Source: Gemmatimonadota bacterium (GTDB lineage: Bacteria; Gemmatimonadota; Gemmatimonadetes; Gemmatimonadales; Gemmatimonadaceae). From it: DNA of 64,000 nt. Where the stretch lies: the NCBI GenBank assembly GCA_028287305.1, contig JAQBPX010000028.1:62001-126000 (forward strand), in the 5' to 3' direction. A model generated the notes under the pieces. That model was not told the origin of the DNA and searched no databases. It saw nothing but the letters and a program-made list of their open reading frames with translations. Each line of letters begins with the position of its first letter. The stretch's first letter is position 1. A program made the position numbers and the translations under genes. Below are positions 49,840-63,389 of this stretch, piece by piece.

Positions 49840-52800
49840 CTACTTCATCGGCGGGTCAGTGCGCGGCCTCACCTTGTCGGCGGGGCGCGTGGGAATCACG
49901 TGCCGCTTGGTGGCCATCTGCTTCATGACCTCCTGCACGGCGCGCTCGAGCTGGTTGTCCTTGCCCGCGAGCACGGACGCGGCGTCGTTCTCGACTTCGA
50001 TGTCGGGATCCACGCCGTGTCCCTCGATGATCCACTGTCCATCGGCGCTGGCGAGCGCCGACGTGGGCACGTTGACGTTGCCTCCATCGATCAGCGGCAC
50101 GCCACCGTTGATGCCCACCACGCCGCCCCACGAACGCTTGCCGATGAGCGGCCCGAGCTTCGCCTGGCGGAACATGTAGGGGAAGATGTCGCCGTCGCTC
50201 GATGAGTACTCATCGAGGATCGCCGCCATCGGCCCCACGAAGACGTTGTCGGGATAGGTGCCTGGCAGGTCGCTGGTGCGCGCGTAGTTCACGCCGAGCA
50301 GTTCGCGACGCAGGCGCTCGATCACCATGCGGGAGATGTTGCCGCCACCATTGGCGCGGACGTCGACGACCAGGCCTTCCTTATTCATCTGCGGGTAATA
50401 CCACTTGATGAACTCGCGCAGGCCGCCCGCGCCCATGTCGGGAATGTGGATGTATCCCACCTTCCCGCCGGTGAGCTGCGACACGCGCCGCTGGTTCGCG
50501 AGCACCATGTCCAGGTAGCCGAGGTCATTCTCGGTGGTCACCGGACGGTAGCTCACGTCGTGCGAGCCGCCCCCCTGCGCCGAGGTCGCGAGCGTGAGCG
50601 TCACGGGACGGTCGGACTTGCCGCGCAGCATGCGATACGGATCGTCGCCGGCTTGCAGCGGCTCGCCGTCGATGGCCATGACGTACTCGCCCACCTTCGC
50701 GTTCACGCCGAGCTCGGTGAGCGGCGAACGGTAGATCGCCTCCTCGTTCTGCCCCTCGTAGATCTTCGAGATGCGGTAGTGACCGGCGGCGGAGTCGAGC
50801 GAGAACTGCGCACCGGCCAGCGCGACCGGCGTGCGCGTCGCCTGCTGCCAGTCACCGCCCGCGATGTAGGCGTGCTGCACGCTCAGCTCCGAGATCATTT
50901 CCTGGATCACGTAGTTGAGGTCGGACCGATGGTCCACGAATGCGACGAGCGGCTTGTACTGGTCGTGCAGCGCCTGCCAGTCGTAACCGTGCATGTTCTT
51001 CGCGTAGAAGTAGTCGCGATAGCGGCGCCACACTTCCTCGAAGATCTGGTTCCATTCGGCGCGCGGGTCGCGGTCCACCTGCAGGCCGTCGATCGCCACG
51101 GCCTTGCGGCTGGCGGCGGCGTTCGGTCCCACGTCATACACGCCGAAGCCACCGGAGCCGACCAGCACCTTCTTGCGATCGCGCGAGAAGGCGTAGCCGC
51201 CCGCGTTGTCGAGGAGCAGTGTGGTCTTGCGGTCCTTGAGCGAGTAGCTGTTGAGCACCGGGCGGCGCTCGGGCTGCCGCGAGTAGTACGGCGCGCCCGT
51301 CACCTGGTAGATGAGGGCGCCCTTCGTGGCGACCAGGTCGCCGATGTTCTCGGACTCGATGGGCACGCGGGCCACGCGCGACTCGATCCCGTCGAAGTCG
51401 ATGCGGACTTCGCGGCTCGATGCCGCGATCGCGTCGGGACCACCGCTCGGCGCCGGAGTTGCCGGCGCTGCAGCGCCGGGGGCAGGCGTCGCCGGATTCT
51501 GCGGCCGGCGCGCCGCCATGGTGTCCACCGTGACCTCGTCGTTCTCCATCGGGAAGGGGTTCTTCACGTCCCTGCGCAGGGCGAGGGCGAAGATTCCTGT
51601 CTGGCGCACGGTGGCGTAGTTGAACTCGTCCTGCGAGAGCTGCGGCTGGTAGTCGCGGTTGCTCAGGTAGAAGAGGTAGTTGCCGTCCGGGTCCCACGAG
51701 GGAGTGAACTCGTTGAAGCCGACGGTGGTGACTCGATGCGCCTTCGCATCACTCGCCTGCCACACGTAGATGGACGAGGTGCGCTTGTCCTCGACGTCGG
51801 TCTGGCTCCAGGCGAGCGAGTTGCCCGTGGGGGACCAGGTGTAGTCGGTGATGCGGCCGGAGAGCTCGTCGGCGATTTCGCTGACGTTGCGATCCGCCAC
51901 GCGCAGCACGTACAGCTTGCCGTCCTTGTCGCTGAAGGCGATGCGGGAATTGTCCGCGCTCCACTGCGGGTTGAAGCGCTGCGCCTTGCCGCCGGTCGTG
52001 AGCTGCACGGGCTTCGAGGAGCCGTCCTGCGCCACCGTCCAGACCTCTTCCTCGCCGCTGGCGTCGGAGATGTAAGCGATGCGCGAGCCGTCGGGCGACC
52101 AGTCGGGCGAGCGATCGTGCGCGCCGCTCGAGTGGGTGAGGTTGCGCGTGTAGCCGTGCTCGATGGGCACCGTGAAGATGTCGCCGCGTGCGGCGAACAC
52201 TGCGCGCTCGCCCTTGGGGCTGAGGCTGGCCGCTTCTATCTGGCCAGCAGCCGAGACGCGTGATGGGCGCGTGGTGACGTTGTCGTCGGTGGCGGTCACG
52301 TGGATCGCCGAGACCTGTCCGCTCTTCGTGTCGAGCACCGAGAGCTCGCCGCCGAACTCGTAGATGATCCGGCCGGTGGCGACGTCTGCGCTGGGCCAGC
52401 GCACGTCCCACGTGGTGCTCTTCGTGAGCTGCGCGATCGCGCCGGTGGCGACGTCGTACGAATACAGGTTGAAGGTGCCGTCGCGATCGGAGTTGTAGTA
52501 GATCTTGTTGCCGATCCACATCGCGTCGCGCTCGGCGCGCGGGCCCTTGCTGATGGTGCGGGCGGAGTTCTTCGAGAAGTCGAAGATCGCCAGGTAGTTG
52601 GCGAAGCCGCCGCTGTAGCGCTTCTCGGGGCGGAAGTCGCGGAAGACCTTCGAGTAGACGATCTGCCTGCCGTCGGGCGAGTAGGCACCGGAGCCGGCGA
52701 GGGGCATCGGCAGCGCTACCGCGGAACCGCCCTGCGGGCTCACCGTGTAGAGCTTCGTCTGGCCCAGTGTCCAGGAGCCGCGCGTGCCGCGGAAGAGGAT

Positions 52801-53193
52801 GCGCGAGCCGTCCCTGGTCCAGCCGTAGACCTGGTTGTCGTAGCCCCAGCGCTCGGCGCGCGGGCCGCCAGAGGGATACCAGGTGAGCTGCTTCGGGGCG
52901 CCGCCGGTCGAGGGGACCACGTAGACCTGCTCGTCGCCGTCGTACTGGCCGGTGAAGGCGATCCAGCGGCCGTCGGGCGAGAACTTGGCGAAGACCTCGA
53001 TGCCGGGGTGCGACGTGATGCGGGTCGCGGTGCCTCCCGTCGCCGGGGCGGTCCAGATGTCGCCGCCGTGCGAGAAGGTGATGCGATCGCCGTGGATGTC
53101 GGGAAAGCGGAGGAGCTTGGTCTGTGCGGAAGCGGTGCCTGTGGCCAGGAGAACCAGAGCCGCGGCGCGCGCGAGCATGAGTCGTGTAGGCAT
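49840..53193 (-). CDS. Exported tricorn-like S41 protease
   Basis: A 1117-residue protein: signal peptide (residues 1-23), a beta-propeller built of PD40/WD40-like repeats (about 30-560, e.g. SPDGRWIAFTGQYDG, SPDWSPDGSRIAYISD), a Pro/Ala linker, then the tricorn core, PDZ domain and S41 catalytic region. Catalytic His774 lies in LSVQHAYIAGGD and Ser999-Asp1000 in DEYSSSDGDIFPY. Tricorn proteases cut peptides of intermediate size; here it is exported, so it works in the periplasm or outside. The ATG at 53193 is preceded by CATCTT at four bases. Confidence 0.93.
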   Translation of the reverse strand: MPTRLMLARAAALVLLATGTASAQTKLLRFPDIHGDRITFSHGGDIWTAPATGGTATRITSHPGIEVFAKFSPDGRWIAFTGQYDGDEQVYVVPSTGGAPKQLTWYPSGGPRAERWGYDNQVYGWTRDGSRILFRGTRGSWTLGQTKLYTVSPQGGSAVALPMPLAGSGAYSPDGRQIVYSKVFRDFRPEKRYSGGFANYLAIFDFSKNSARTISKGPRAERDAMWIGNKIYYNSDRDGTFNLYSYDVATGAIAQLTKSTTWDVRWPSADVATGRIIYEFGGELSVLDTKSGQVSAIHVTATDDNVTTRPSRVSAAGQIEAASLSPKGERAVFAARGDIFTVPIEHGYTRNLTHSSGAHDRSPDWSPDGSRIAYISDASGEEEVWTVAQDGSSKPVQLTTGGKAQRFNPQWSADNSRIAFSDKDGKLYVLRVADRNVSEIADELSGRITDYTWSPTGNSLAWSQTDVEDKRTSSIYVWQASDAKAHRVTTVGFNEFTPSWDPDGNYLFYLSNRDYQPQLSQDEFNYATVRQTGIFALALRRDVKNPFPMENDEVTVDTMAARRPQNPATPAPGAAAPATPAPSGGPDAIAASSREVRIDFDGIESRVARVPIESENIGDLVATKGALIYQVTGAPYYSRQPERRPVLNSYSLKDRKTTLLLDNAGGYAFSRDRKKVLVGSGGFGVYDVGPNAAASRKAVAIDGLQVDRDPRAEWNQIFEEVWRRYRDYFYAKNMHGYDWQALHDQYKPLVAFVDHRSDLNYVIQEMISELSVQHAYIAGGDWQQATRTPVALAGAQFSLDSAAGHYRISKIYEGQNEEAIYRSPLTELGVNAKVGEYVMAIDGEPLQAGDDPYRMLRGKSDRPVTLTLATSAQGGGSHDVSYRPVTTENDLGYLDMVLANQRRVSQLTGGKVGYIHIPDMGAGGLREFIKWYYPQMNKEGLVVDVRANGGGNISRMVIERLRRELLGVNYARTSDLPGTYPDNVFVGPMAAILDEYSSSDGDIFPYMFRQAKLGPLIGKRSWGGVVGINGGVPLIDGGNVNVPTSALASADGQWIIEGHGVDPDIEVENDAASVLAGKDNQLERAVQEVMKQMATKRHVIPTRPADKVRPRTDPPMK

Positions 53194-53300
53194 GCGTAAG
53201 ATGTGGCGCCGAACGGGGCACCCGCGCAAGAACCCGACGATGTCCGAACAATTTCCGGATGTGCGGGGAACCGAAAGCGACGCCGGGCGATAGGAGACAG

Positions 53301-53940: not shown

Positions 53941-55413
53941 CTACATCCTGAGCGATCCGCAGCTTCCGCCTCCCGGCAATTCCGGCTTGCGCTGCTTCAT
54001 CATGGCCTCGACGTCGGCGATCTCGCGCGGGGCGCCCTTCGAGAGCCAGTCCACGCCCGTGGCGGTCACCGCGTAGTCGTCCTCGATGCGAACGCCGATG
54101 CCCATGTACTTCGCGAGCGCGGGCGCGAGCTTCGCCTTCATCGCGCGATTCTTCGGCGTGTCGGGGAGCGACGCGAAGAACGCGCTGTCCACGTAGATGC
54201 CAGGCTCCACGGTGGTCACGTCGCCCACTGCGAACCGGCCGGTGTAGTAGTACTGCGCGGGGTCGTGGACCTCGAGGCCGATGCCATGGCCTCCATAGCC
54301 GTGCGGCAGGTAGAGGCCCGCCTGCGAGCAGTCGCGCCGGTCGCAGGTCATGCCCTCGGGAGGATCGAAGGTGGCCGTCGCACTTTCCATGAGGCCGAGC
54401 GCGATGAGGCCCTTCGTGGCCACCGCGCGACCGGAGTCGCTCGCCACCGATTCGGCGACGCCAGGCTTTACCTGCCGCACGTACGCGGCCTGCGCGTCGA
54501 GCACGATCTGGTAGATGTCGCGCTGTGGCTTGCTGAAGGTGCCGTTCACGGGCACGGTGCGCGTGACGTCGGCGGAGTAGTGGTCGAACGACGTGGCGGC
54601 GTCGATCAGCAGGAGCTCGCCGGCGCGCATCACGCGATTGTCGTCCATGTAGTGCAGCGTGGTGGCGTTCGGGCCGGAGCCCACGATGCTGCCGTAGGCG
54701 GGGCGGTCTCCGCCGAAGCGACGGAAGGTGCCGTCGAGCAGCGCCTGGATCTCGTTCTCGCCGCACTGCGGGGCAACGGCCTTCATGGCTTCGACGTGCG
54801 CGCGAACCGATATCTGCGCAGCCTTGCGGAGCAGCTCGATCTCGGCGGGCGACTTGTTCGCGCGCATCGCGTCCACGCGCGCGCCGAGCGAGCGGGGCTT
54901 GAGCCCCTGCCGGGCGAGCTCCTGCGCCAGGCGGCTGCCGCGCGTGAGTGAATCCTCGGCGGCGTAGTCGCTCGCCTGGATGTCGGGGACGGAATAGAAG
55001 GGGAGCTTGGTGGCGGCGAGTGAGTCGAGGGTGGCGCGAAGCTGCGAGATGTCGCGCCCGGGAATTCCGTACTTGCGGTTGAAGTCGGCGACCGAGGTGC
55101 GGGCGCCGTTCCATCGCTGCTCGAGCGCGTTGCGTGTGGGCGCGAACAGCACGGTGGCAGTCTTGCCACCCTGCTTGGTTATAAGGAGCACCCCATCGGT
55201 CTCGCCGAAGCCGGTGAGGTACTGGAACGCCGGCAGCTGGAATGGATTGGGCCAGTAGTTCACCGGCTCCACCACGCCATAGGCCACGACGACGCCCGAG
55301 TCGATCGACGCCAGCAATGCGTTGCGGCGGGCCGCGTAGTCGATCGAGGGCGCCTGCGCCGAGAGGAGGGCTGGGAGGGCGAGGGCGACGAGGGCTACGA
55401 TGCGCTTGGTCAT
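53941..55413 (-). CDS. Exported M24 family Xaa-Pro aminopeptidase-like protein, paralogue 2
   Basis: A 490-residue paralogue of the protein at 16951-18411. Signal peptide MTKRIVALVALALPALLSAQ. Metal ligands: Asp271, Asp282 (ADVTRTV), His376 in HGYGGHGIGLEVHD (one residue longer than the paralogue), Glu403 (VEPGIYV) and Glu in VRIEDDY. A Cys pair (MTCDRRDCSQ) sits before the His loop, like the paralogue's ECAPQRQCRQ. CAGCTT lies six bases before the ATG. Confidence 0.92.
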   Translation of the reverse strand: MTKRIVALVALALPALLSAQAPSIDYAARRNALLASIDSGVVVAYGVVEPVNYWPNPFQLPAFQYLTGFGETDGVLLITKQGGKTATVLFAPTRNALEQRWNGARTSVADFNRKYGIPGRDISQLRATLDSLAATKLPFYSVPDIQASDYAAEDSLTRGSRLAQELARQGLKPRSLGARVDAMRANKSPAEIELLRKAAQISVRAHVEAMKAVAPQCGENEIQALLDGTFRRFGGDRPAYGSIVGSGPNATTLHYMDDNRVMRAGELLLIDAATSFDHYSADVTRTVPVNGTFSKPQRDIYQIVLDAQAAYVRQVKPGVAESVASDSGRAVATKGLIALGLMESATATFDPPEGMTCDRRDCSQAGLYLPHGYGGHGIGLEVHDPAQYYYTGRFAVGDVTTVEPGIYVDSAFFASLPDTPKNRAMKAKLAPALAKYMGIGVRIEDDYAVTATGVDWLSKGAPREIADVEAMMKQRKPELPGGGSCGSLRM

Positions 55414-55460: not shown

Positions 55461-56630
55461 CTAATTCCTCGTAAGCTTGATGGTGACGTCCTCCGAGAGT
55501 CCTTCGGCACTCGTGAGTGTGACCGTGACGTCGATCCGGCCTTTCTGCACGGTGAGATGCTCCGCGGTGAACACGATGAGCCGTCCCCACGGTATTCCCG
55601 TACCACCGGGTCCTTCCTTTTTCCAGCTGCCGCATCCCCCGGCGCGGGAGCTGACCGCCTTCGTCTCCGCGCTCCCTCGCGACATGGCCTCCACGCTGAG
55701 CGAGAAGACCTTGATGTTCGGGTCCGGCTCGCGGGTAATGCGCAGCTTCACCCGTCGCAGGATCCCCTTCGCCGACGCCGTGGACTCGGTGGCATCGATG
55801 ATGTCATCCGACACGTTGCTCACGTAGCCGGAGTCGCTGACCACTCCGTTCTTGTCCTGCGGGAAGCAGCCCTTGCTCCCCCACCTCGATTCCTCGATAC
55901 CCTTCGACGTCAACTCCGACGAGCCTTCGGTATCGATGTACGGCGGCTCGCCGGGCTTTCCGTGGGAAATCACGAACTTCCATGTGTCCTGCTCGTGCTG
56001 GTCGAGCTTCGAGATCTGCTGGCCGGTCGGATCTCCGTTCGGCTCCACCACATTCTTGTGCACGTTTGCCGTCCGCGAGTAGTCGAGGGTGCCGACCCAC
56101 GGGCAGATGTCATACTCCATCGCCCGCAGAGGCGCGAGGATCCCCTCCACGAAGTCATGTGCGCTCCAGTTCCACCCGTCGGCATCCATGCGATTGCGCA
56201 TTGGCACCTTGCCGGTCGCCACGTTGTACATCGTCGCCGAGGCGTAGCGGCCCGGTGATTCGTGCGTGGTGCCGGTGGAGCCGAACTCGAGGCTGATCAC
56301 GATCTCGGCCCCGACCAGTTCCGCAATGCGCTCGGTCATGTCCTCCGCGCTTCCCGAGATGAGCGCCTTTTCGCGGTCGTTGTTGGCCATCATCACGACG
56401 TCGTCAACCGTTCGCACGTTGGCGCACGGGAAGAGCTCGCGGACCTGCTGCTCGACCTGCGCGTAGATCGCATCGGCCGCCGCGGCATTCACGTTGCGCA
56501 CGAGCTTCGGTCGCAGCAACAGGATGCGGAACTGCTTCGGCGCGCCTGCCGCACGAGCGGGGGCGTTCGGCGTCGCGCCCGGGACGAGCAGCGAGAGTGC
56601 ACACATCAGCGTGGTGAGTCGGGGCATCAT
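55461..56630 (-). CDS. Exported protein with CsgG/LpoB/TolB-N-like N-terminal domain
   Basis: A 389-residue exported protein and last gene of the five-gene overlapping operon. After the signal peptide, FRILLLRPKLVRNVNAAAADAIYAQVEQQV ... VRTVDD ... ERIAELVGAEIVISLEF has the pattern of CsgG/LpoB/TolB-N domains. The second half is a Gly/Ser-rich region with strands (RVKLRITREPDPNIKVFSLSVEA) and ends in a beta-rich stretch (GRIDVTVTLTSAEGL). The start at 56630 overlaps the preceding stop by 4 bp (ATGA). Role unknown; the N-terminal domain type often acts in envelope assembly or as lipoprotein activator. Confidence 0.65.
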   Translation of the reverse strand: MMPRLTTLMCALSLLVPGATPNAPARAAGAPKQFRILLLRPKLVRNVNAAAADAIYAQVEQQVRELFPCANVRTVDDVVMMANNDREKALISGSAEDMTERIAELVGAEIVISLEFGSTGTTHESPGRYASATMYNVATGKVPMRNRMDADGWNWSAHDFVEGILAPLRAMEYDICPWVGTLDYSRTANVHKNVVEPNGDPTGQQISKLDQHEQDTWKFVISHGKPGEPPYIDTEGSSELTSKGIEESRWGSKGCFPQDKNGVVSDSGYVSNVSDDIIDATESTASAKGILRRVKLRITREPDPNIKVFSLSVEAMSRGSAETKAVSSRAGGCGSWKKEGPGGTGIPWGRLIVFTAEHLTVQKGRIDVTVTLTSAEGLSEDVTIKLTRN

Positions 56631-57172
56631 GGCTTCATCCTCGCCGCGTTGAACGTTCCCTTGAGCGTGACGACGATGTCCTTGTCGTCGGCATCGTTGC
56701 CGCACAGGCGAAGCTCGAACCGACCGGACACAGCGGCCGCGGTCGCGCTCGAGATCGAAACGGTTCCCGACTGCCCGCCGGCAAGCCACGTCGGCGTCAG
56801 CGGTGGGCCCCCTCGAAGGGTCACCGCCACGTCGCTCCGGGGCGGCGGCGGCGCGTCGTCGTCCGGTTCTTCGGGTGGGTCATCGTCTTCGCACGGCGAT
56901 TCATGGATCGTCAGCACGCCAGGGTGTGCCGAGGGCGCGCCGACTGGACGCTCGATGACGATCGTGGCACGGGCCGCTGCACTGCCAGCGCTGCTGAGGA
57001 CGACGAGCAGCGAGCCATCGGGCGCCACGCGGAACGCTGCGCGGCCCTCGAGGTGCGCGGGCGACGCGCCGGTCATTGTCGCTTCGAAGCAGTTACTCGT
57101 GCACGCCGCCGGCATCGGAGACCTGGCGAGCGCGAGCAGGGCCAGTGCGGCGAGTGTGTTGATCTGGCGCAT
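56627..57172 (-). CDS. Exported hypothetical protein with acidic/proline linker
   Basis: A 181-residue protein with a signal peptide (MRQINTLAALALLALARSPMPAA) and a Cys pair soon after (CTSNCFEA). Two beta-rich parts flank an Asp/Glu/Pro linker (PCEDDDPPEEPDDDAPPPP). The second part (VAVTLRGGPPLTPTWLAGG ... SGRFELRLCG) resembles the ends of its operon neighbours. Starts one base inside the stop of the upstream gene (TGATG). No family recognised. Confidence 0.6.
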   Translation of the reverse strand: MRQINTLAALALLALARSPMPAACTSNCFEATMTGASPAHLEGRAAFRVAPDGSLLVVLSSAGSAAARATIVIERPVGAPSAHPGVLTIHESPCEDDDPPEEPDDDAPPPPRSDVAVTLRGGPPLTPTWLAGGQSGTVSISSATAAAVSGRFELRLCGNDADDKDIVVTLKGTFNAARMKP

Positions 57173-58545
57173 CAGCAGTGCGCCGGCAGGTCGGTGAACG
57201 TCGCCGTCAGCTTGGCGCCCTTCGTCTCGCCCGATTGGTCGATGCCATCTGCGACAATCGTGAGGGACCCACTGAACGTCTTGCCGGCCTTCGTGATCGT
57301 CAGCGTGCCGCCGGTGGCCGAGAACGAGTTCGCGGACGTGCCGCTCCGGGAGAAGCCTACGGTGATCGTGGACGAGCCTTCCACGGCGATCGGGTAACTG
57401 CCCGGGCGCAGCCGCGTGTTGTTCCCAGTGATCAGGCCGACGCCGCCTTCGCCGGTGAGCTGGATGACGAATAGACTCTCGCCGCCGACCATGCAGACGG
57501 CGCCGGTGCCGCTCAGGGGGCCTGTCGGTGTCGTGGCCACGAACGTCCCGGCCGCGGCGAGCTCACGCTTCTCCCCGGCCGGTGGTACGGGACTGAGGCC
57601 GAGGGTCGTGGTGGTGACGGTGCCGGGTGGGAGGTGTCCCTTGCGGTTCCAGCGTTCGACATACATCTCGAATTCCTCGACCGCGAAGCCCTTCGAACCG
57701 ACGGCGTGTCGTCGGGCGACGATTCCGACGCCGGTCGCGTCCATCTGGAGCACGGCCGGTGGGGCGAGCGTGGGAGGGCGAAGCACGAGGGAAAACGTCC
57801 GCTCCGCCTGCGGCGTCGGAGAGGCACTCGAGCCGATGGTGGCCGAGAACCACTTCTCGAGTTCGAGACCGCGAGGGATCGACGTCGTGATCCGGATGTT
57901 CGGATGGTCGAAGCCAGGTCGATTCTCGCCCCTGATGAAGTCGCCCTGGAGCTGTACCGAGTCGAGTGTCACTGCCTGAATGGTCTGGCCATCGACCAGA
58001 ACCTGGAAGTTGGCGCGGAGGCAGTCATTTCGATCGGTCGAAGCCGGGATCTTGGTCGACGAAGGGGTGACCGGCGCGTATGAGCCCGGACGAAGGACCA
58101 CGGTCACGTTGCAGGCATCCTTCGACGAGGCATCGAAGGCGCCGAATGTCACGGAGAGGACCTGCGCGTCGACGGCCCTCGAGGTGAGCGTCGGCGTGCC
58201 GTTGAAATCGGTCGTCACGACATCGAAGGTCGTGCGCTGTCCGTCCAGGAAGGCGTCGAGCATCTGGATGAACGCCGCGTTCGGCCACTGGAACGTGACC
58301 TCGATGTCGTCCTGTACCACCCGTTGTCCCAGCTTCTTGTCCCGCGTTCCAAACTCGTCGGGCCCCTGTGCCTCCACGACGCCGTAGCGTGCCCCGCCCC
58401 TCAACGTCTTGACGGGGAGAATCGCAGAGCTGCCGACCTGGACGAACACCTTGGCAACCGTGTACGTACGTTCGTCCGCGGCCGCTCCCCCGGATCGCAT
58501 CGCCAGCGGCGAGATGGCCACCAGCACCATCCAGAAGCGCCTCAT
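57172..58545 (-). CDS. Exported protein with two phage tail-tube (gp19)-like segments
   Basis: A 457-residue exported protein. Residues about 28-155 and 176-297 each follow the pattern of T4 gp19/Pvc1 tail-tube domains: a start like FQVLVDGQTIQAVTLDSV, a middle with LELEKWFSATI or AFIQMLDAFLDG, and an end like GFAVEEFEMYVER or FDASSKDACNVTVVL. The remainder (about 330-457) is beta-rich (GKTFSGSLTIVADG). A signal peptide and no other phage genes argue against a prophage; it may be an envelope or extracellular tube-like protein. The gp19 relation is my reading of weak patterns. Overlaps both neighbours (4 bp, 1 bp). Confidence 0.5.
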   Translation of the reverse strand: MRRFWMVLVAISPLAMRSGGAAADERTYTVAKVFVQVGSSAILPVKTLRGGARYGVVEAQGPDEFGTRDKKLGQRVVQDDIEVTFQWPNAAFIQMLDAFLDGQRTTFDVVTTDFNGTPTLTSRAVDAQVLSVTFGAFDASSKDACNVTVVLRPGSYAPVTPSSTKIPASTDRNDCLRANFQVLVDGQTIQAVTLDSVQLQGDFIRGENRPGFDHPNIRITTSIPRGLELEKWFSATIGSSASPTPQAERTFSLVLRPPTLAPPAVLQMDATGVGIVARRHAVGSKGFAVEEFEMYVERWNRKGHLPPGTVTTTTLGLSPVPPAGEKRELAAAGTFVATTPTGPLSGTGAVCMVGGESLFVIQLTGEGGVGLITGNNTRLRPGSYPIAVEGSSTITVGFSRSGTSANSFSATGGTLTITKAGKTFSGSLTIVADGIDQSGETKGAKLTATFTDLPAHC

Positions 58546-59039
58546 TTCGGCGGCCCCTTCGCCGCGCCCTCACACCCCGCGGCCTGGCCTGCGTCGAACG
58601 TCCCTTCCGCTCGCACCACCTTGCCTGCGCCACCCTTGGCCGCGGCGGAGAACTTGAAGCTGCCCGTGACGTGCGTCGCGTCGATGCGGCTGAACGTCAC
58701 GGTGCCCTCCGTCGCCTCGTAGCGCGTCCACCGCACGGGTTCCTTCCCCGTGGTCTTGTCGGTCACCCCGGCCGTCACCACGCCATCGCCGATCACATGG
58801 CTGCCCGAGGTGGGTGCGCCCTTCGACGACGCAATCTTCACCGCCCATTGCTCGTTGTTCGCCGCGAAGGCGAAGACGCTGATGGTCATCTTCCCGAACG
58901 TGGCGCTCGTGGTGCAGAAGCCTCCGTCGTGCATCTCGACGCTGCCGCTCTTGCCCCCCGAGAGCGTCATGCTCACGCGTCCCCCGGAGGCGAGCGCCAG
59001 CGACGCAAGCGCCGCGAGCATCATCGCGCGCGCGCTCAT
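58542..59039 (-). CDS. Exported beta-rich hypothetical protein (DUF6252-like pattern)
   Basis: A 165-residue exported protein. After the signal peptide it is beta-rich, with TVTFSRIDATHVTGSFKFSA and VVRAEGTFDAG, a pattern like the small secreted DUF6252-type proteins of Bacteroidota. Two cysteines (GGFCTTS, AGCEGA) could pair. It overlaps the OmpA-like gene upstream and the tail-tube-like gene downstream by 4 bp each, so expression is tightly coupled. Confidence 0.55.
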   Translation of the reverse strand: MSARAMMLAALASLALASGGRVSMTLSGGKSGSVEMHDGGFCTTSATFGKMTISVFAFAANNEQWAVKIASSKGAPTSGSHVIGDGVVTAGVTDKTTGKEPVRWTRYEATEGTVTFSRIDATHVTGSFKFSAAAKGGAGKVVRAEGTFDAGQAAGCEGAAKGPPK

Positions 59040-60400
59040 GGGACCTTCACCAGCTCGACGCGACGATTGGCCTGGCGTCCTTCCGGCGTGGTGTTGAGGG
59101 CGACCGGCTTGCCCTGCCCCATGCCGCGCGGCGTGAGGCGACCCTCTCCCACGTGCAGCGTGCCAGTGAGATACGCCACGATCGCCTGCGCGCGCTTCTG
59201 CGACAGTGCGAGGTTCGCCGCGGGCGTGCCCGAATTGTCGGTGTGCCCTTCGACCACCAGCTTGAGGTCCGCATGCTCGGACAGCATGTCACCGATGATC
59301 TTCAGCGTGGGCGTCGACTCGCCACGAATACGGTCGCTGCCCACGTCGAACAGGATGCCCTGCGTGGCCACGTGGCCATCGGCGAGCAGCGCGTCATACA
59401 GCTTCTTGCCCCCCGCATTCACGCTCAGGTTGCCGATGAGCGGAAAGGCCTGCTCGGTCGGCCCGTCGTACTCGAAGATGATCTTGTTCGCGCGCCCGAA
59501 GTCGGCGTTCGGGATGTTCGCGATGCGCTTCTCATCCATGTACACCTTCACGTAGCGACCATCCGCCTCCATGCGGATGTGGAAGACGCGGCTGTTGTCT
59601 TCCTTCTCGCCGCCGAACATGTCGGGGTACTGCGTGCGCGGATCCACCAGCGATCCCTCGGTGCTCTTCGCGCGCGTCACGCCCGCCGTGGGTCCCGTGA
59701 AGAGCACGGTGGCCACGTCGCGATCCGGGGTCTGGATCCCCAGCTTGTCCGCCCCGGCCGCCGAGTAGAACGCGAACCCATTCCACGGAATGGTTGCGTC
59801 GAACTCCATGGTGAAGCGCTGCCCCAGCTTCTCGGGCAGCGGGACGGCGAAGATCGTCGGGCTGCTCATCCGCAGCCAGCGGCCGCCCTTCCACTCCACC
59901 ACCTCGGCGTTGCCACTCACCAGCTCGAGGCGCTGCGGGAAGTTGCCCACGCGGTCCTTCGAAAAGTCCTCCGAGAAGAGCACGCGCTCACCCGGCACGA
60001 AGTCGAAGTTGCTCCAGGCGCCCTGGCCCGGGGCGCCCGCCTGCTTCGGCGCGTCTGCGCTGCCTTCGCCCGAGGCGGGAGCCGCCGCGGCAGGCGCCAC
60101 GCGTGCAGGAGAGTCCTTCGGCTGCTTCGACGGCGGCAGCACGGTGCCTGAGCTGTCCGTGAGCACCACCTTCTTGCCCGCCTCCTTCGCGCGCTTCGGG
60201 CAGTCCGCATCGCCCACGATGCATGCGAACGCCCCGTCGAACTCCTCGAGCACTCGATCCTCCGCCTGCTCGACCTTTTGCTCGGCGCGCTCCTTCACCT
60301 TCTGCTTGAGCCGATCGCCCAGCCCCTGTGCCTGAACGCCCGGCAGGGCGAGAACGAGAAGGGCCAGTACAACTAACGAAGTACGTAACGAGCGTTTCAT
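59036..60400 (-). CDS. OmpA family protein with concanavalin-like N-terminal domain
   Basis: A 454-residue envelope protein, first gene of the five-gene operon. Signal peptide, a short Lys/Glu-rich helix (DRLKQKVKERAEQKVEQAED), an Ala/Pro linker, a laminin-G/concanavalin-like beta domain (about 130-315: VLFSEDFSKDRVGNFPQRLELVSG ...), and a C-terminal OmpA peptidoglycan-binding domain (LKLVVEGHTDNSGTPAANLALSQKRAQAI ... RRVEL). It probably anchors a surface or periplasmic complex to peptidoglycan. GAGG ribosome-binding site before the ATG at 60400. Confidence 0.88.
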   Translation of the reverse strand: MKRSLRTSLVVLALLVLALPGVQAQGLGDRLKQKVKERAEQKVEQAEDRVLEEFDGAFACIVGDADCPKRAKEAGKKVVLTDSSGTVLPPSKQPKDSPARVAPAAAAPASGEGSADAPKQAGAPGQGAWSNFDFVPGERVLFSEDFSKDRVGNFPQRLELVSGNAEVVEWKGGRWLRMSSPTIFAVPLPEKLGQRFTMEFDATIPWNGFAFYSAAGADKLGIQTPDRDVATVLFTGPTAGVTRAKSTEGSLVDPRTQYPDMFGGEKEDNSRVFHIRMEADGRYVKVYMDEKRIANIPNADFGRANKIIFEYDGPTEQAFPLIGNLSVNAGGKKLYDALLADGHVATQGILFDVGSDRIRGESTPTLKIIGDMLSEHADLKLVVEGHTDNSGTPAANLALSQKRAQAIVAYLTGTLHVGEGRLTPRGMGQGKPVALNTTPEGRQANRRVELVKVP

Positions 60401-60494
60401 GACGGAACCTCGGGGGGGTGGGAGCATCGGGACTTGCCTATCCAGCCAGCGCGGATACGATTGCTTCGGCGCGTTATTCCCGTGTTTCGCCAGC
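60401..60494. other. 5' spacer of the OmpA operon
   Basis: Contains the Shine-Dalgarno (GAGG) and a G8 run (60411-60418, complement C8 in the mRNA). No ORF; no clear -10/-35 pair was seen on the minus strand. Confidence 0.35.
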
Positions 60495-60514
60495 CGTTAC
60501 CTGCGCAGGTAACG
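60495..60514. promoter_or_regulatory. Perfect 20-bp palindrome, probable operator
   Basis: CGTTACCTGC followed directly by its reverse complement, with no spacer. It lies 31 bp before the BTAD regulator gene and 95 bp before the OmpA operon, in the region that must contain both promoters, so it is a good candidate for the binding site of a dimeric regulator. SARP/BTAD proteins typically bind direct repeats, so the binder may be another protein. Confidence 0.6.
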
Positions 60515-60545
60515 CCCGGAATTCTCCCGTTTCCCGCACGAAAGC

Positions 60546-63389
60546 GTGATCCACCTCAGGTTGCTGGGCACCGTGGACGCGCGGGACGACCTCGGCGCGC
60601 CGCTCAAGCGGATCATCGCGCAGCCCAAGCGGCTGGCGCTGCTGGCGTACCTGGCGCTTGGAAATGGCCAGCTTCGCATGCGCGACCTGCTCCTCGCCCA
60701 GTTCTGGCCGGAGCTCGACACCACCCACGCGCGAGCGGCGCTCCGCCAGGCGCTGCATCACCTGCGTCGCGACCTTGGGGAGGGTGCGATCACCGGTGAG
60801 GGTGAAGGCCTCGCGATGAACATGGCCCTTGTGCAGTGCGACGCCTGCGACTTCGCGCGACATGTGACCGCGGGCGACGATGCAGCAGCCCTCGACTGCT
60901 ACGGCGGCACCCTGCTCGACGGCGTGCACGTGAGCGATGCCTCCACGGAATGGGAAGCGTGGCTCGATGGCGAGCGCGCCAGGCTGCGCGACATGGCGCT
61001 GGCCGCGGCGCGGCGCCTCGTCTCCGCGGCGCGAGCGCGCGGCGACCTGGAGGGCGCGGTGACGCTCGCTCGTCGTGCCTGCCAGCTGGCGCCGGACGAC
61101 GACGCGACCGCCTGCGCGCTCGTGAGCGCACTTTCCGCACAGGGTGACGCGTGCGGCGCGCTGCGCGTCCACGAGGCGTTCGCCAGGCGGATGCGGCGCG
61201 AGTTCGAGCTCGACGTCTCGCCGGAGATGACCGCGCTGGTCGCGCGCATTCGCAGCGAGGAGCGGTCGGCACCGGGCATCATCACGCCGGTGGAGGCGGC
61301 GGCGATCATCTCGGCCCCGCACGCGGTGCGGAGCACCGAGCGAAGCTGGCCGAGGAAGCGCGCACTGGCGGTGGCAGTGATGGCGATGGCCGCATTCGCT
61401 GCAGCGCTCGCATGGCGGGCCAGCCATGCGCCGGAACCCACGGTGCTCGCCATCGGCCTCATTCGCGACCACACCGGCTCGCCGGAGCTTGCGGCTGCAG
61501 TGAGCGAGCTGCTCGCAACGGACATGGCACGCGACGCGGGGTCTCGCGTCATCAGCACCCCGCGCATGTTCGAGCTGCTCACGCAGGTGGACAGCGCGGG
61601 CGGCGAGCGCCAGCGCATGGCTCGCGCTGCGCGACTGGCCGGCGCCGACGAATTCCTGGAGGGTGCACTCTACCGCGACTCCACCGGCCTTCGGCTGGAG
61701 CTCGACCGCGTGGACCTCCGCACCGGTCGCGCGGTGAACTCGCGCACGATTTCGGGCGCCGATCCATTCGTGCTCGCGGAGCGCGCGACGGGCGGCGTGC
61801 TCGGCACCATGCGCATCGGCCCGCCGCGCGGGCGACTGCAGGACGTCGTCGCCAACTCTCCCATGGCGCTGCGCTTCTACCAGGAGGGAGTGCGCGCTCG
61901 ATCGCAGAACGACATGGCGGCGGCCAAGCGCTTTTTCGCCGCCGCGGTGGCGGAGGACTCCTCCTTCGCGATGGCCACCTTTGCGCTCGCCGTGATGCAG
62001 GACTCGGTGGGCCCGCTGCACTACCGGGCGCTCCACCTGGCCGAGCGGACTTCCGATCGTGAACGCCTCCTGATCCAGGCCACGCTCGCTCACACCTTCG
62101 ACGATCCGGCGGCGCTCGCATTTGCCGAGACGCTGGCCGTGCGCTATCCGTCCGAGCCGGACGGCGCGCTGATGCTCGGCCAGGCGCTGGTCTATGAGGG
62201 CCGGCCCGCCGAGGCGATCCCGCCGTTGCGCCAGGTGATCGCCATGGACTCGGCGAGCCTGCGCTCGAGCGACGCCTGCCGCGCGTGCGAGGCCTACTCC
62301 GAGCTGGCGTCGGCGTACACCCACATGGATTCGATGCAGGCAGCGGAGCGCGTGGCGCGGGAGTACCATGCGCGCGCGCCGGCCCGGGTGCAGTCGCTCT
62401 ATCCACTGATCGACATCCTCGACGACCAGCGGCACTTCGACGAGGTGCGCGCCCTGCTCGGACAGATGGAGGTTGCCAACGGCTCCGCGCTCGGCGAGTA
62501 CGGACACCGGGCGGACCTCCTGATCAAGGAAGGTCGATTCGGCGAGGCCGAGGCCTACCTGCAGCGCGTGATAGAATCGACGCATGGCGACGACCGCGCG
62601 AACGCGCAGTGGGGATATACCATCCTCCTGCGCAACGAGGGACGATATCGCGAGGCGCTCGCGCTCGCCGAGGTGCTGCGCCAGCGCGACGCCCGCCCGC
62701 CGGCGGCATTCGCCCAGCGATACTGGAGCGGCGGGATGCGCGCAATGATCCTGCACGACATGGGACGCTACGCCGAGGTGATTGCGCTGCGAGATTCTTC
62801 CATGCGGACGCCCTATGGTTCGACGCTCACGCGCAAGTCACGCAGCCTTGCCGGCGAGATGACGCAGGCGGCCGCGGCGCGCGCGGAGATGGGTGACACC
62901 GCGGGGCTGCGGACAATCGCCGAGCAGGTCGAGTTTCACGGGAGCCGCACCGGATATGGAATGGTGCGCCGGTTCCATCATTATGTTCGCGGCCTTCGGT
63001 ACGGACTGCTGGGGCGGCACGAGGACGCCGTGCGCGAGCTGCGCGCGTCCATCTTCTCCCCGGTCACGGGCTTCGTGCGCGAGAACTATGAACTGGGCAA
63101 GGAACTACTGGCCGCCGGACGCCCGGCCGAGGCGGCGTACTGGTTCGACGCCGGGTTGCGTGGGCCGCTTGGCGCTGGTGGCCTGGGCGTCACCCGACCG
63201 AAGCTCGAGTTGATGCTCGGGCGCGCCCGCGAGCGGATGGGCGACACGCTGGGTGCCGTCGCCAGCTACGAGTATGCGATGGCAGCCTGGGAGCACGCCG
63301 ATCCGGTCGTGCATCCCATGCGCGCGGAGGCGGCGAGCCGCGTTCAGGCACTCCGCGCGGTGAGGGTGAAGAACTCCACGATGCGCTGA
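60546..63389 (+). CDS. Membrane-anchored BTAD regulator with TolB-N-like and TPR domains
   Basis: A 947-residue one-component regulator. A winged-helix DNA-binding domain (about 1-90: [32 protein letters not shown]) and a BTAD helical domain (about 95-240) precede one transmembrane helix (about 272-290). The outer part has a TolB-N-like domain (about 298-405, [12 protein letters not shown] ... [11 protein letters not shown]) and then many TPR helices to the end. This layout resembles CadC-like or SARP-type regulators that sense envelope conditions. It is divergent from the exported five-gene operon, which it likely controls (inference). GTG start; a weak AAAG is the only ribosome-binding-site candidate. 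Confidence 0.85.

Follow-up and report, generated by a model that had tools for sequence, protein, structure and literature searches.

In SARP/BTAD regulators, a Trans_reg_C-like region and a BTAD occupy the N-terminus. OmpA/Pal-like peptidoglycan (PG)-binding proteins such as YiaD, YfiB and TagL have a C-terminal OmpA domain. CadC-type one-component regulators, in the comparison drawn in PMC9214523, are composed of a winged helix, one TM helix, a periplasmic alpha/beta domain and TPRs, and adjoin the genes which they presumably regulate. In co-component systems of the VtrA/VtrC kind, as described in the same source, the lipocalin-like VtrC is paired with a CadC-like DNA-binding chain which is devoid of a TPR part; the partner gene mostly overlaps the end of the regulator gene, a few being exceptions or located on the complementary strand (PMC9214523).

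The locus analysed here lies in a 64,000-nucleotide stretch of a Gemmatimonadaceae genome (the window) and includes six genes, of which the coordinates and strands were all verified: A to E on the minus strand and R, divergent, on the plus strand.

53941..55413, minus strand: M24 peptidase of aminopeptidase P-like type, perhaps a sixth gene after A-E (Pfam Peptidase_M24, 3.5e-50)
55461..56630, minus strand: E, probably exported, 389 aa, no recognised family in Pfam, NCBIfam, PHROGs and further searches
56627..57172, minus strand: D, probably exported, DUF6252-like beta domain (by profile) with an acidic, proline-rich linker
57172..58545, minus strand: C, probably exported, no recognised fold; C-terminal ~130 residues perhaps DUF6252-like (by profile score)
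58542..59039, minus strand: B, small, probably exported, DUF6252-like beta domain (by profile and an ortholog in genome G238)
59036..60400, minus strand: A, signal peptide, coiled segment, ConA-like jelly roll and OmpA domain (Pfam and AF2 fold)
A, N-terminal part: coiled segment, includes Cys 60 and Cys 67
A, residues 134-332: ConA-like jelly roll (fold match of the AF2 model)
A, residues ~350-446: C-terminal OmpA domain (PF00691, E 3.3e-18, 66.3 bits against a cut-off of 27.2)
60495..60514: perfect 20-bp palindrome CGTTACCTGCGCAGGTAACG, candidate operator (sequence and simulation)
60546..63389, plus strand: R, membrane-anchored regulator, 947 aa (Pfam, hydropathy and profile comparison)
R, residues ~23-79: probable winged helix (Trans_reg_C, E 9e-4; 19.7 bits, below the cut-off of 26.2)
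R, residues 113-236: BTAD (Pfam, E 1.8e-13, above the cut-off)
R, residues ~271-293: TM stretch, a single hydrophobic segment of TM length by hydropathy, after RKR
R, residues ~285-435: CsgG/TolB-N-like domain (hhalign profile comparison)
R, best at residues 652-677: TPRs (Pfam TPR_8, 2.1e-7, above the cut-off)

We regard this locus, with a probability of about 0.5, as a locally controlled envelope operon in which a recurrent pair of a CadC-like regulator and a PG-anchored lectin has received lineage-specific exported additions, and not as a conserved five-gene machine. The reading frames of A to E are joined at ATGA, ATGA, TGATG and ATGA, giving overlaps of 4, 4, 1 and 4 bp as in the preliminary description (1-4 bp each), which implies translational coupling. 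Hydrophobic N-terminal segments are present in 5/5 of the encoded proteins (best 10-residue KD means, 2.35-3.52), in agreement with the signal peptides previously assigned to all five; these calls are those of a hydropathy heuristic, not of a trained predictor, and comparable KD values are common within the window.

The layout of R is probably that of CadC with an added BTAD, the winged helix being called at a sub-threshold score. The Trans_reg_C-like region and the BTAD are N-terminal, as in SARP/BTAD regulators; the former sits directly before the latter and is matched at the same place, always below the cut-off, in 6/8 scanned R-like proteins including R itself. Unlike SARP/BTAD regulators, R contains a TM stretch, and half of the protein is presumed to be periplasmic. 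As in CadC-type regulators, the hydrophobic stretch is single and is followed by a putative alpha/beta domain, assigned by a CsgG/TolB-N-like profile, and then by TPR helices. The hhalign score of the region is 35.2 against 17.8 for the best of 40 shuffles, and full-length R scores highest of the window's called genes with a CsgG-like profile (51.0; next, 25.9). NCBIfam TIGR04510 matches residues 296-609 (9e-12, below the cut-off). Thus, the order of BTAD, one TM helix, TolB-N-like domain and TPRs noted earlier for R holds. R differs from CadC-type regulators by the BTAD inserted between the winged helix and the TM stretch, and by its length, with a longer C-terminal part. Judged from charges only, the winged-helix/BTAD part would be in the cytoplasm, and the C-terminal half with the CsgG/TolB-N-like and TPR regions would be in the periplasm.

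R would be a one-component switch, bound to the membrane, which to judge from its position acts on its own promoter and on the divergent promoter of A-E, probably at the 20-bp palindrome, which is perfect and, as had been reported, lies between the divergent genes. The A-R gap (60401-60545) is 145 bp. Order-2 simulations of the window yielded 12 such 20-bp palindromes in 60 windows, i.e., 0.2 per 64 kb, which corresponds to a chance expectation of ~5e-4 for a 145-bp gap; the real window includes two. The sequence occurs once in its own genome, with one further 3-mismatch site on contig C23. Across 40 loci of A in relatives, no site was found at four or fewer mismatches, and the eight R-A gaps of relatives that were checked differ from the palindrome by 8-10 mismatches. 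A search for a sigma-70-type promoter found none.

A was previously described as an OmpA/lectin protein, and both parts of this description stand, the lectin-like part by the fold of a model. The AF2 model of A has a mean pLDDT of 69, and parts of the jelly roll are below 50 (225-231 and 236-267). The modelled residues 134-332 match ERGIC-53 (1gv9; Z 14.4, rmsd 3.0, 178 aligned) and ZgLamA (Z 14.4, 171 aligned). The OmpA domain model matches OmpA-C with Z 17.5, and matches to the OmpA/Pal-like proteins as a group have Z ~15-17.5; the best NCBIfam match is YiaD (3.4e-28), and the best 25 of 39 NCBIfam matches are all below their own cut-offs. D388 and R403 of this domain, the putative diaminopimelate-binding residues, are invariant in 20 aligned sequences. 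In contrast to OmpA/Pal-like proteins, neither an OmpA barrel nor a lipobox was seen in A by eye, and A adds the jelly roll and the N-terminal coil with its Cys pair. A would be exported and held to peptidoglycan via its OmpA domain, presenting the predicted jelly roll to bind glycan from the envelope or the surroundings.

R-like genes recur beside A. In 12/40 fetched Gemmatimonadaceae loci, from six genera besides the window's own, an R-like gene is divergent to A or to A's operon; these loci were hand-picked from the best-scoring A matches, so the fraction does not represent a random sample. ORFs homologous to A number 39 in the 40 loci. No R-like gene is beside A in the other 28/40, some of which are limited by the contig, and only two further R-like genes occur in the set, one 3.6 kb away (L055) and one at a locus edge (L057). 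Antisense ORFs entered the clustering of neighbours, of which only the R-like cluster was used. The R-like ORFs beside A vary: at L045, L046 and L049 they have a length of 377-489 aa, the one at L046 shows no TPR, and the one at L040 shows a BTAD without a TPR or Trans_reg_C match at E<=0.01. At L060 and L065, other genes are located between R and A. On a tree of A, adjacency to R requires seven changes and is weakly clustered (36/500 shuffles as low), with L041, L070 and L077 entered as R-negative by the script.

The top-scoring relatives of R elsewhere (~36-40%) are at loci without A, and A was found in 0/20 fetched R loci, indicating that the R-A pairing is frequent, not exclusive. R was called in 18/20 of these loci; its first upstream neighbour is divergent with a signal-like start (by heuristic) in eight, divergent without one in four and co-directional in six. 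Facing an exported operon is thus no fixed trait of R.

The recurrence of R-like genes and A as neighbours would also be consistent with co-component sensing, in which A or one of the small beta proteins B and D would be a VtrC-like ligand-binding partner of the periplasmic part of R instead of an effector. We regard this as improbable: the genes are divergent here, unlike most co-component pairs, and a CadC-like TPR part, which the co-component chains lack, is already present in R.

Beyond R and A, conservation is narrow. R-A-B with the same 4-bp ATGA overlap between A and B is present in one other genome, G238 (contig identical to JANXUN010000345.1), where B is followed by pyrE (named by eye) on the opposite strand, without C-D-E. 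Other exported proteins are encoded after A at five loci (L041, L042, L065, L069 and L070), a phosphodiester-glycosidase-like protein is encoded at L060, and a DUF6252 protein directly follows A at L074 (Pfam 6.3e-6; 26.9 bits against a cut-off of 27.2). The gene order is therefore not conserved as a whole cluster, its R-A-B part being shared with a single genome. Of the PG-anchored assembly under a membrane regulator proposed in the preliminary description, the parts concerning A and R are well supported, and a single five-gene assembly is not.

By profile comparison, B and D share a predicted DUF6252-like beta domain, a kinship which is new here. B has 44% tblastn identity to its G238 counterpart, and reaches 16.1 bits with Pfam DUF6252 (PF19765), short of the curated cut-off of 27.2; Pfam gave no match of any family for D at E<=1 and no DUF6252 match for C. 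With a profile of DUF6252-like Gemmatimonadaceae domains made without B, B scores 41.3, partly by construction because most profile members came from a B-seeded search; the top unrelated protein scores 21.6. D scores 40.0 with B in the profile and 35.2 without it, exceeding every unrelated protein compared. The profile rows are mainly weak B-search matches; those in G239, G293 and G296, and one of the pair in G254, were excluded. D differs from DUF6252 domains by an acidic insert, the linker EDDDPPEEPDDD noted earlier. The C-terminus of C is perhaps DUF6252-like: it scores 26.5 with B and the G238 ortholog in the profile (57 other window genes reach 17.6), and 20.5-21.4 without them, which is within noise relative to the best unrelated protein. 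Both B and D would belong to one family of small exported proteins with a beta domain, and may act as partners of A.

C and E had been described as a double tail-tube-like and a CsgG/LpoB-like protein, respectively; neither assignment was sustained. For C, Pfam, NCBIfam and PHROGs gave no match of note, a PDB sequence search gave no match, and phage tblastn gave one match, to a hypothetical protein (E 0.3). In a search of 121 genomes with PF06841, C was not among the own-genome matches at E<=1, the sole match there (E 0.68) being on a different contig. Parts of C score 11.3-16.7 by hhalign with 10 gp19 rows (8 distinct), under the 20.2 reached by 60 shuffles of residues 20-165, and the tail-tube reading was rejected on these sequence and profile comparisons. 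For E, a PDB sequence search gave one match (E 1.2), and E is missing from the own-genome matches at E<=0.1 in a PF03783 search of 59 genomes. With the CsgG-like profile, 77 columns of E aligned at 14.5, below shuffles of up to 18.7, and the CsgG reading was likewise rejected at the level of sequence and profile. The CsgG-like set consists of 15 proteins from 30 fetched loci (4 larger ones left out; 11 unused, being in the wrong frame or larger).

These results bear on the idea of a five-part exported machine, in which a phage-tail-tube-like C and a CsgG-like E form an outer-membrane conduit. The gene order and export signals fit it, and a strand-helix-strand run is visible in the single-sequence AF2 model of C, weakly, as that model has a pLDDT of 35; with C matching no tail-tube profile, E no CsgG profile and the 77-column alignment of E below shuffles, we consider it very improbable. 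In line with the earlier statement that no described system with such an order was known, none of the searches made linked the proteins to a secretion or adhesion system already characterised, and no description of the cluster was found in open-licence literature.

The genome searches scored the first candidates per genome (4-10 for E, up to 8 for C), and absence of C or E means absence at that depth. In 200 phylum genomes, C had one weak match (G023, E 9.5e-4), judged to be chance as it lies within a protein kinase (named by eye); scans of genome contigs and of viruses, both of which need near-exact 8-residue words, gave nothing for C. For E, the search of 179 family genomes yielded one weak match and that of 395 phylum genomes yielded two (overlapping samples), and tblastn against plasmids at E<=0.01 yielded none. 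The match of E in G081 (E 1e-4), within a PDZ-like protein (named by eye), was judged to be chance, as was that in G018 (E 5e-4; tblastn 1e-6 against the short locus alone), which lies in a 257-aa frame resembling a polyketide-cyclase/START-type protein (by eye). No second occurrence of the complete five-gene set was found.

C and E would be lineage-specific exported additions, and C, D and E could be passengers. An alternative, somewhat unlikely in our view, is that a conserved R-A(-B) module merely shares its transcript with recently acquired, functionally unrelated C, D and E. It is consistent with the layout of G238 and with the lack of credible relatives of C and E in the genomes searched. 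GC3 is low in D (0.80), C (0.83) and E (0.85), ranking first, third and fifth from the lowest of 46 window genes of >150 aa (median 0.91), but R is sixth lowest (0.86), so low GC3 is no specific mark of C-D-E. Also, every overlap is 1-4 bp, and the beta domain of B in D hints at duplication and co-function, arguing against unrelated passengers.

The envelope operon described above might, more tentatively, represent one case of a modular Gemmatimonadaceae envelope-response cassette, in which a CadC-like BTAD regulator faces the PG-anchored lectin A and exchangeable exported cargo. A would then provide the constant element, for docking or sensing, and the niche-specific part would be the cargo (B, D, C and E here, and elsewhere the exported proteins after A at L041, L042, L065, L069 and L070 and the phosphodiester-glycosidase-like protein of L060). 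To our knowledge, these bacteria have been little studied at the bench; if the R-A pairing is functional, it would open envelope sensing in this group to experimental tests, with a CadC-type regulator containing a BTAD and a PG-anchored lectin fold with a natural regulator adjoining. Caution is warranted against treating the five genes as a single conserved machine. The M24 peptidase gene, which is outside the conserved set, is on the same strand as E, 47 bp beyond it, and has a signal-like N-terminal start, suggesting that the A-E transcript may be longer.

The locus is best read as the gene for a CadC-like membrane regulator that carries a BTAD domain (R), opposite an operon encoding a lectin-fold protein that bears a peptidoglycan-binding domain (A), DUF6252-like partners (B and D) and two probably exported proteins of unassigned fold (C and E). 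The source assembly is 4.37 Mb in 39 contigs (window, G000:C33:62001-126000). The genes are as follows.

60546-63389, plus strand, divergent to A-E: R, membrane regulator with BTAD and TPR
59036-60400, minus strand: A, lectin-fold plus OmpA domain
58542-59039, minus strand: B, DUF6252-like domain
57172-58545, minus strand: C, probably exported; C-terminus possibly DUF6252-like
56627-57172, minus strand: D, DUF6252-like domain
55461-56630, minus strand: E, probably exported

The A-E junction sequences are, in order, ATGA, ATGA, TGATG and ATGA. At its 3' end, R shares 46 bp (63344-63389) with the 3' end of a convergent gene, methyl-accepting-chemotaxis-like by eye.

The regulator domains proposed in the preliminary description are borne out: BTAD and TPR exceed the Pfam cut-off, one TM stretch is present, and a CsgG/TolB-N-like domain is found (region score 35.2 versus 17.8 for the best shuffle); the Trans_reg_C match is sub-threshold. 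CadC is laid out as a winged helix, then TM, an alpha/beta domain and finally TPR helices (PMC9214523). Among eight R-like proteins scanned, window R counted, BTAD is over the cut-off in six and Trans_reg_C sub-threshold in six. At E<=1e-20, with scoring limited to four candidates in each genome, 119 of the 179 family genomes yield R-like matches, indicating a large regulator family; Pfam BTAD occurs at three places in the window's own genome.

The regulator-A pairing is recurrent. Forty A loci were fetched from the best A matches (homologous ORF called in 39), and 12 of them carry an R-like gene divergent from the A operon (L040, L041, L042, L045, L046, L047, L049, L060, L065, L069, L070 and L077). 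The strict scripted count is 9/39; by taking the longest ORF start, the script overlooked L041 and L077, and it also overlooked L070 because the R ORF there extends past the contig end. All three were added by hand. Three groups of these loci each share a genus (L045, L046 and L049; L041, L042 and L069; L065, L070 and L077). In L060 and L065, intervening genes separate R from A; at 377-489 aa, the R-like ORFs in L045, L046 and L049 are short. Within the fetched A loci, the only further R-like genes seen are one in L055, at a distance of 3.6 kb, and one at a locus edge in L057. Several results count against the pairing, however: A is absent from all 20 loci fetched around the best relatives of R, the gene facing R has a signal-like start in only 8 of 18 such loci with a called R, and R-adjacency takes seven gains or losses on the tree of A, a number equally low in 36 of 500 shuffles. 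Paper searches turned up no description of the pairing.

In A, the OmpA domain spans residues 350-446 (Pfam). A predicted structure (thirteen aligned sequences, twelve from public contigs; mean pLDDT 69) was compared using VIA-align: residues 333-454 superpose on OmpA C-terminal domains (Z 17.5), and residues 134-332 on concanavalin-like proteins, including ERGIC-53 (Z 14.4, 178 residues) and ZgLamA (Z 14.4, 171 residues). Matches to A at E<=1e-10 occur in 132/179 family genomes, own genome counted, many covering the OmpA domain alone. A public-contig scan, in which 80 loci were kept of 575 relatives, also gave long matches in MAGs whose titles name Acidobacteriota (L200, L205) and Rhodothermaceae (L201).

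Among 179 family genomes, B has matches at E<=0.01 in 11, own genome counted, and a strong match in G238 alone. This relative, whose contig sequence is identical to JANXUN010000345.1, has R, A and B ordered as in the window, again with a 4-bp A-B overlap, followed by a pyrE-like gene on the opposite strand; the two A proteins are sisters in the tree (93/95). Of the proposal that the five genes form one system, the recurrent R-A pairing and the R-A-B order in G238 stand, but the full set was not found in other genomes. A DUF6252-like profile of ten Gemmatimonadaceae domains, B and its ortholog left out, scores B at 41.3 and D at 35.2 (best unrelated protein 21.6; 522 comparisons); the D score is the cleaner evidence, as nine of the ten domains were found by B-seeded search. 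In L074, a DUF6252 protein, itself a row of the profile, lies immediately 3' of A. Two apparent tandem DUF6252-like domains occur in L095 (7823-8833) and L097 (2334-3314).

The matches of C and E look like chance: C has one weak match beyond self in 200 phylum genomes and none in genome_contigs or viral_contigs, and E has one in 179 family genomes and two in 395 phylum genomes. These overlapping samples cover part of the phylum, and the matches listed include no second genome of the window's genus. The earlier labels, tail-tube for C and CsgG for E, found no support. Ranked from the lowest GC3 upward among 46 window genes (median 0.91), D (0.80), C (0.83) and E (0.85) come first, third and fifth; this fits recent acquisition or weak selection, but ordinary variation too, since R itself comes sixth. 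Paired gp19 tail-tube genes 1-3 kb apart were seen in L101/L112 (G025:C9), L100/L113 (G019:C1) and L102/L114 (G052:C344), an arrangement like that of contractile injection systems.

The previously noted 20-bp palindrome between R and A is perfect (60495-60514, within the 145-bp gap). Order-2 simulation gives 0.2 such palindromes per 64 kb, so the chance of one falling in the gap is about 5e-4; the window holds two. The palindrome in the gap is single-copy in its genome, bar one site with three mismatches. The 40 relatives' loci (540 kb) contain no site at <=4 mismatches, and the eight R-A gaps compared differ from it by 8-10 mismatches. The second palindrome (50198-50217, CTCGATGAGTACTCATCGAG) lies within the 49840-53229 ORF.

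Other genes adjoin A elsewhere. An exported-looking protein of ~310-354 aa comes after A in L041, L042, L065, L069 and L070, followed by one of 706-784 aa (L041, L065), 420 aa (L042) or 272 aa (L069); the L070 counterpart of the 706-784-aa protein is interrupted by the contig end, and neither of the L041 proteins matches a Pfam family above its cut-off. Downstream of A in L043, L045, L046, L049, L068, L072 and L075, loci spanning two genera, lies a conserved gene of 720-746 aa that by eye resembles glutamine synthetase; R adjoins A in three of the seven. Phosphodiester glycosidase-like (NAGPA) genes adjoin A in L060 (5596-6399, Pfam 6e-17) and L071 (10684-11634, Pfam 2e-14).
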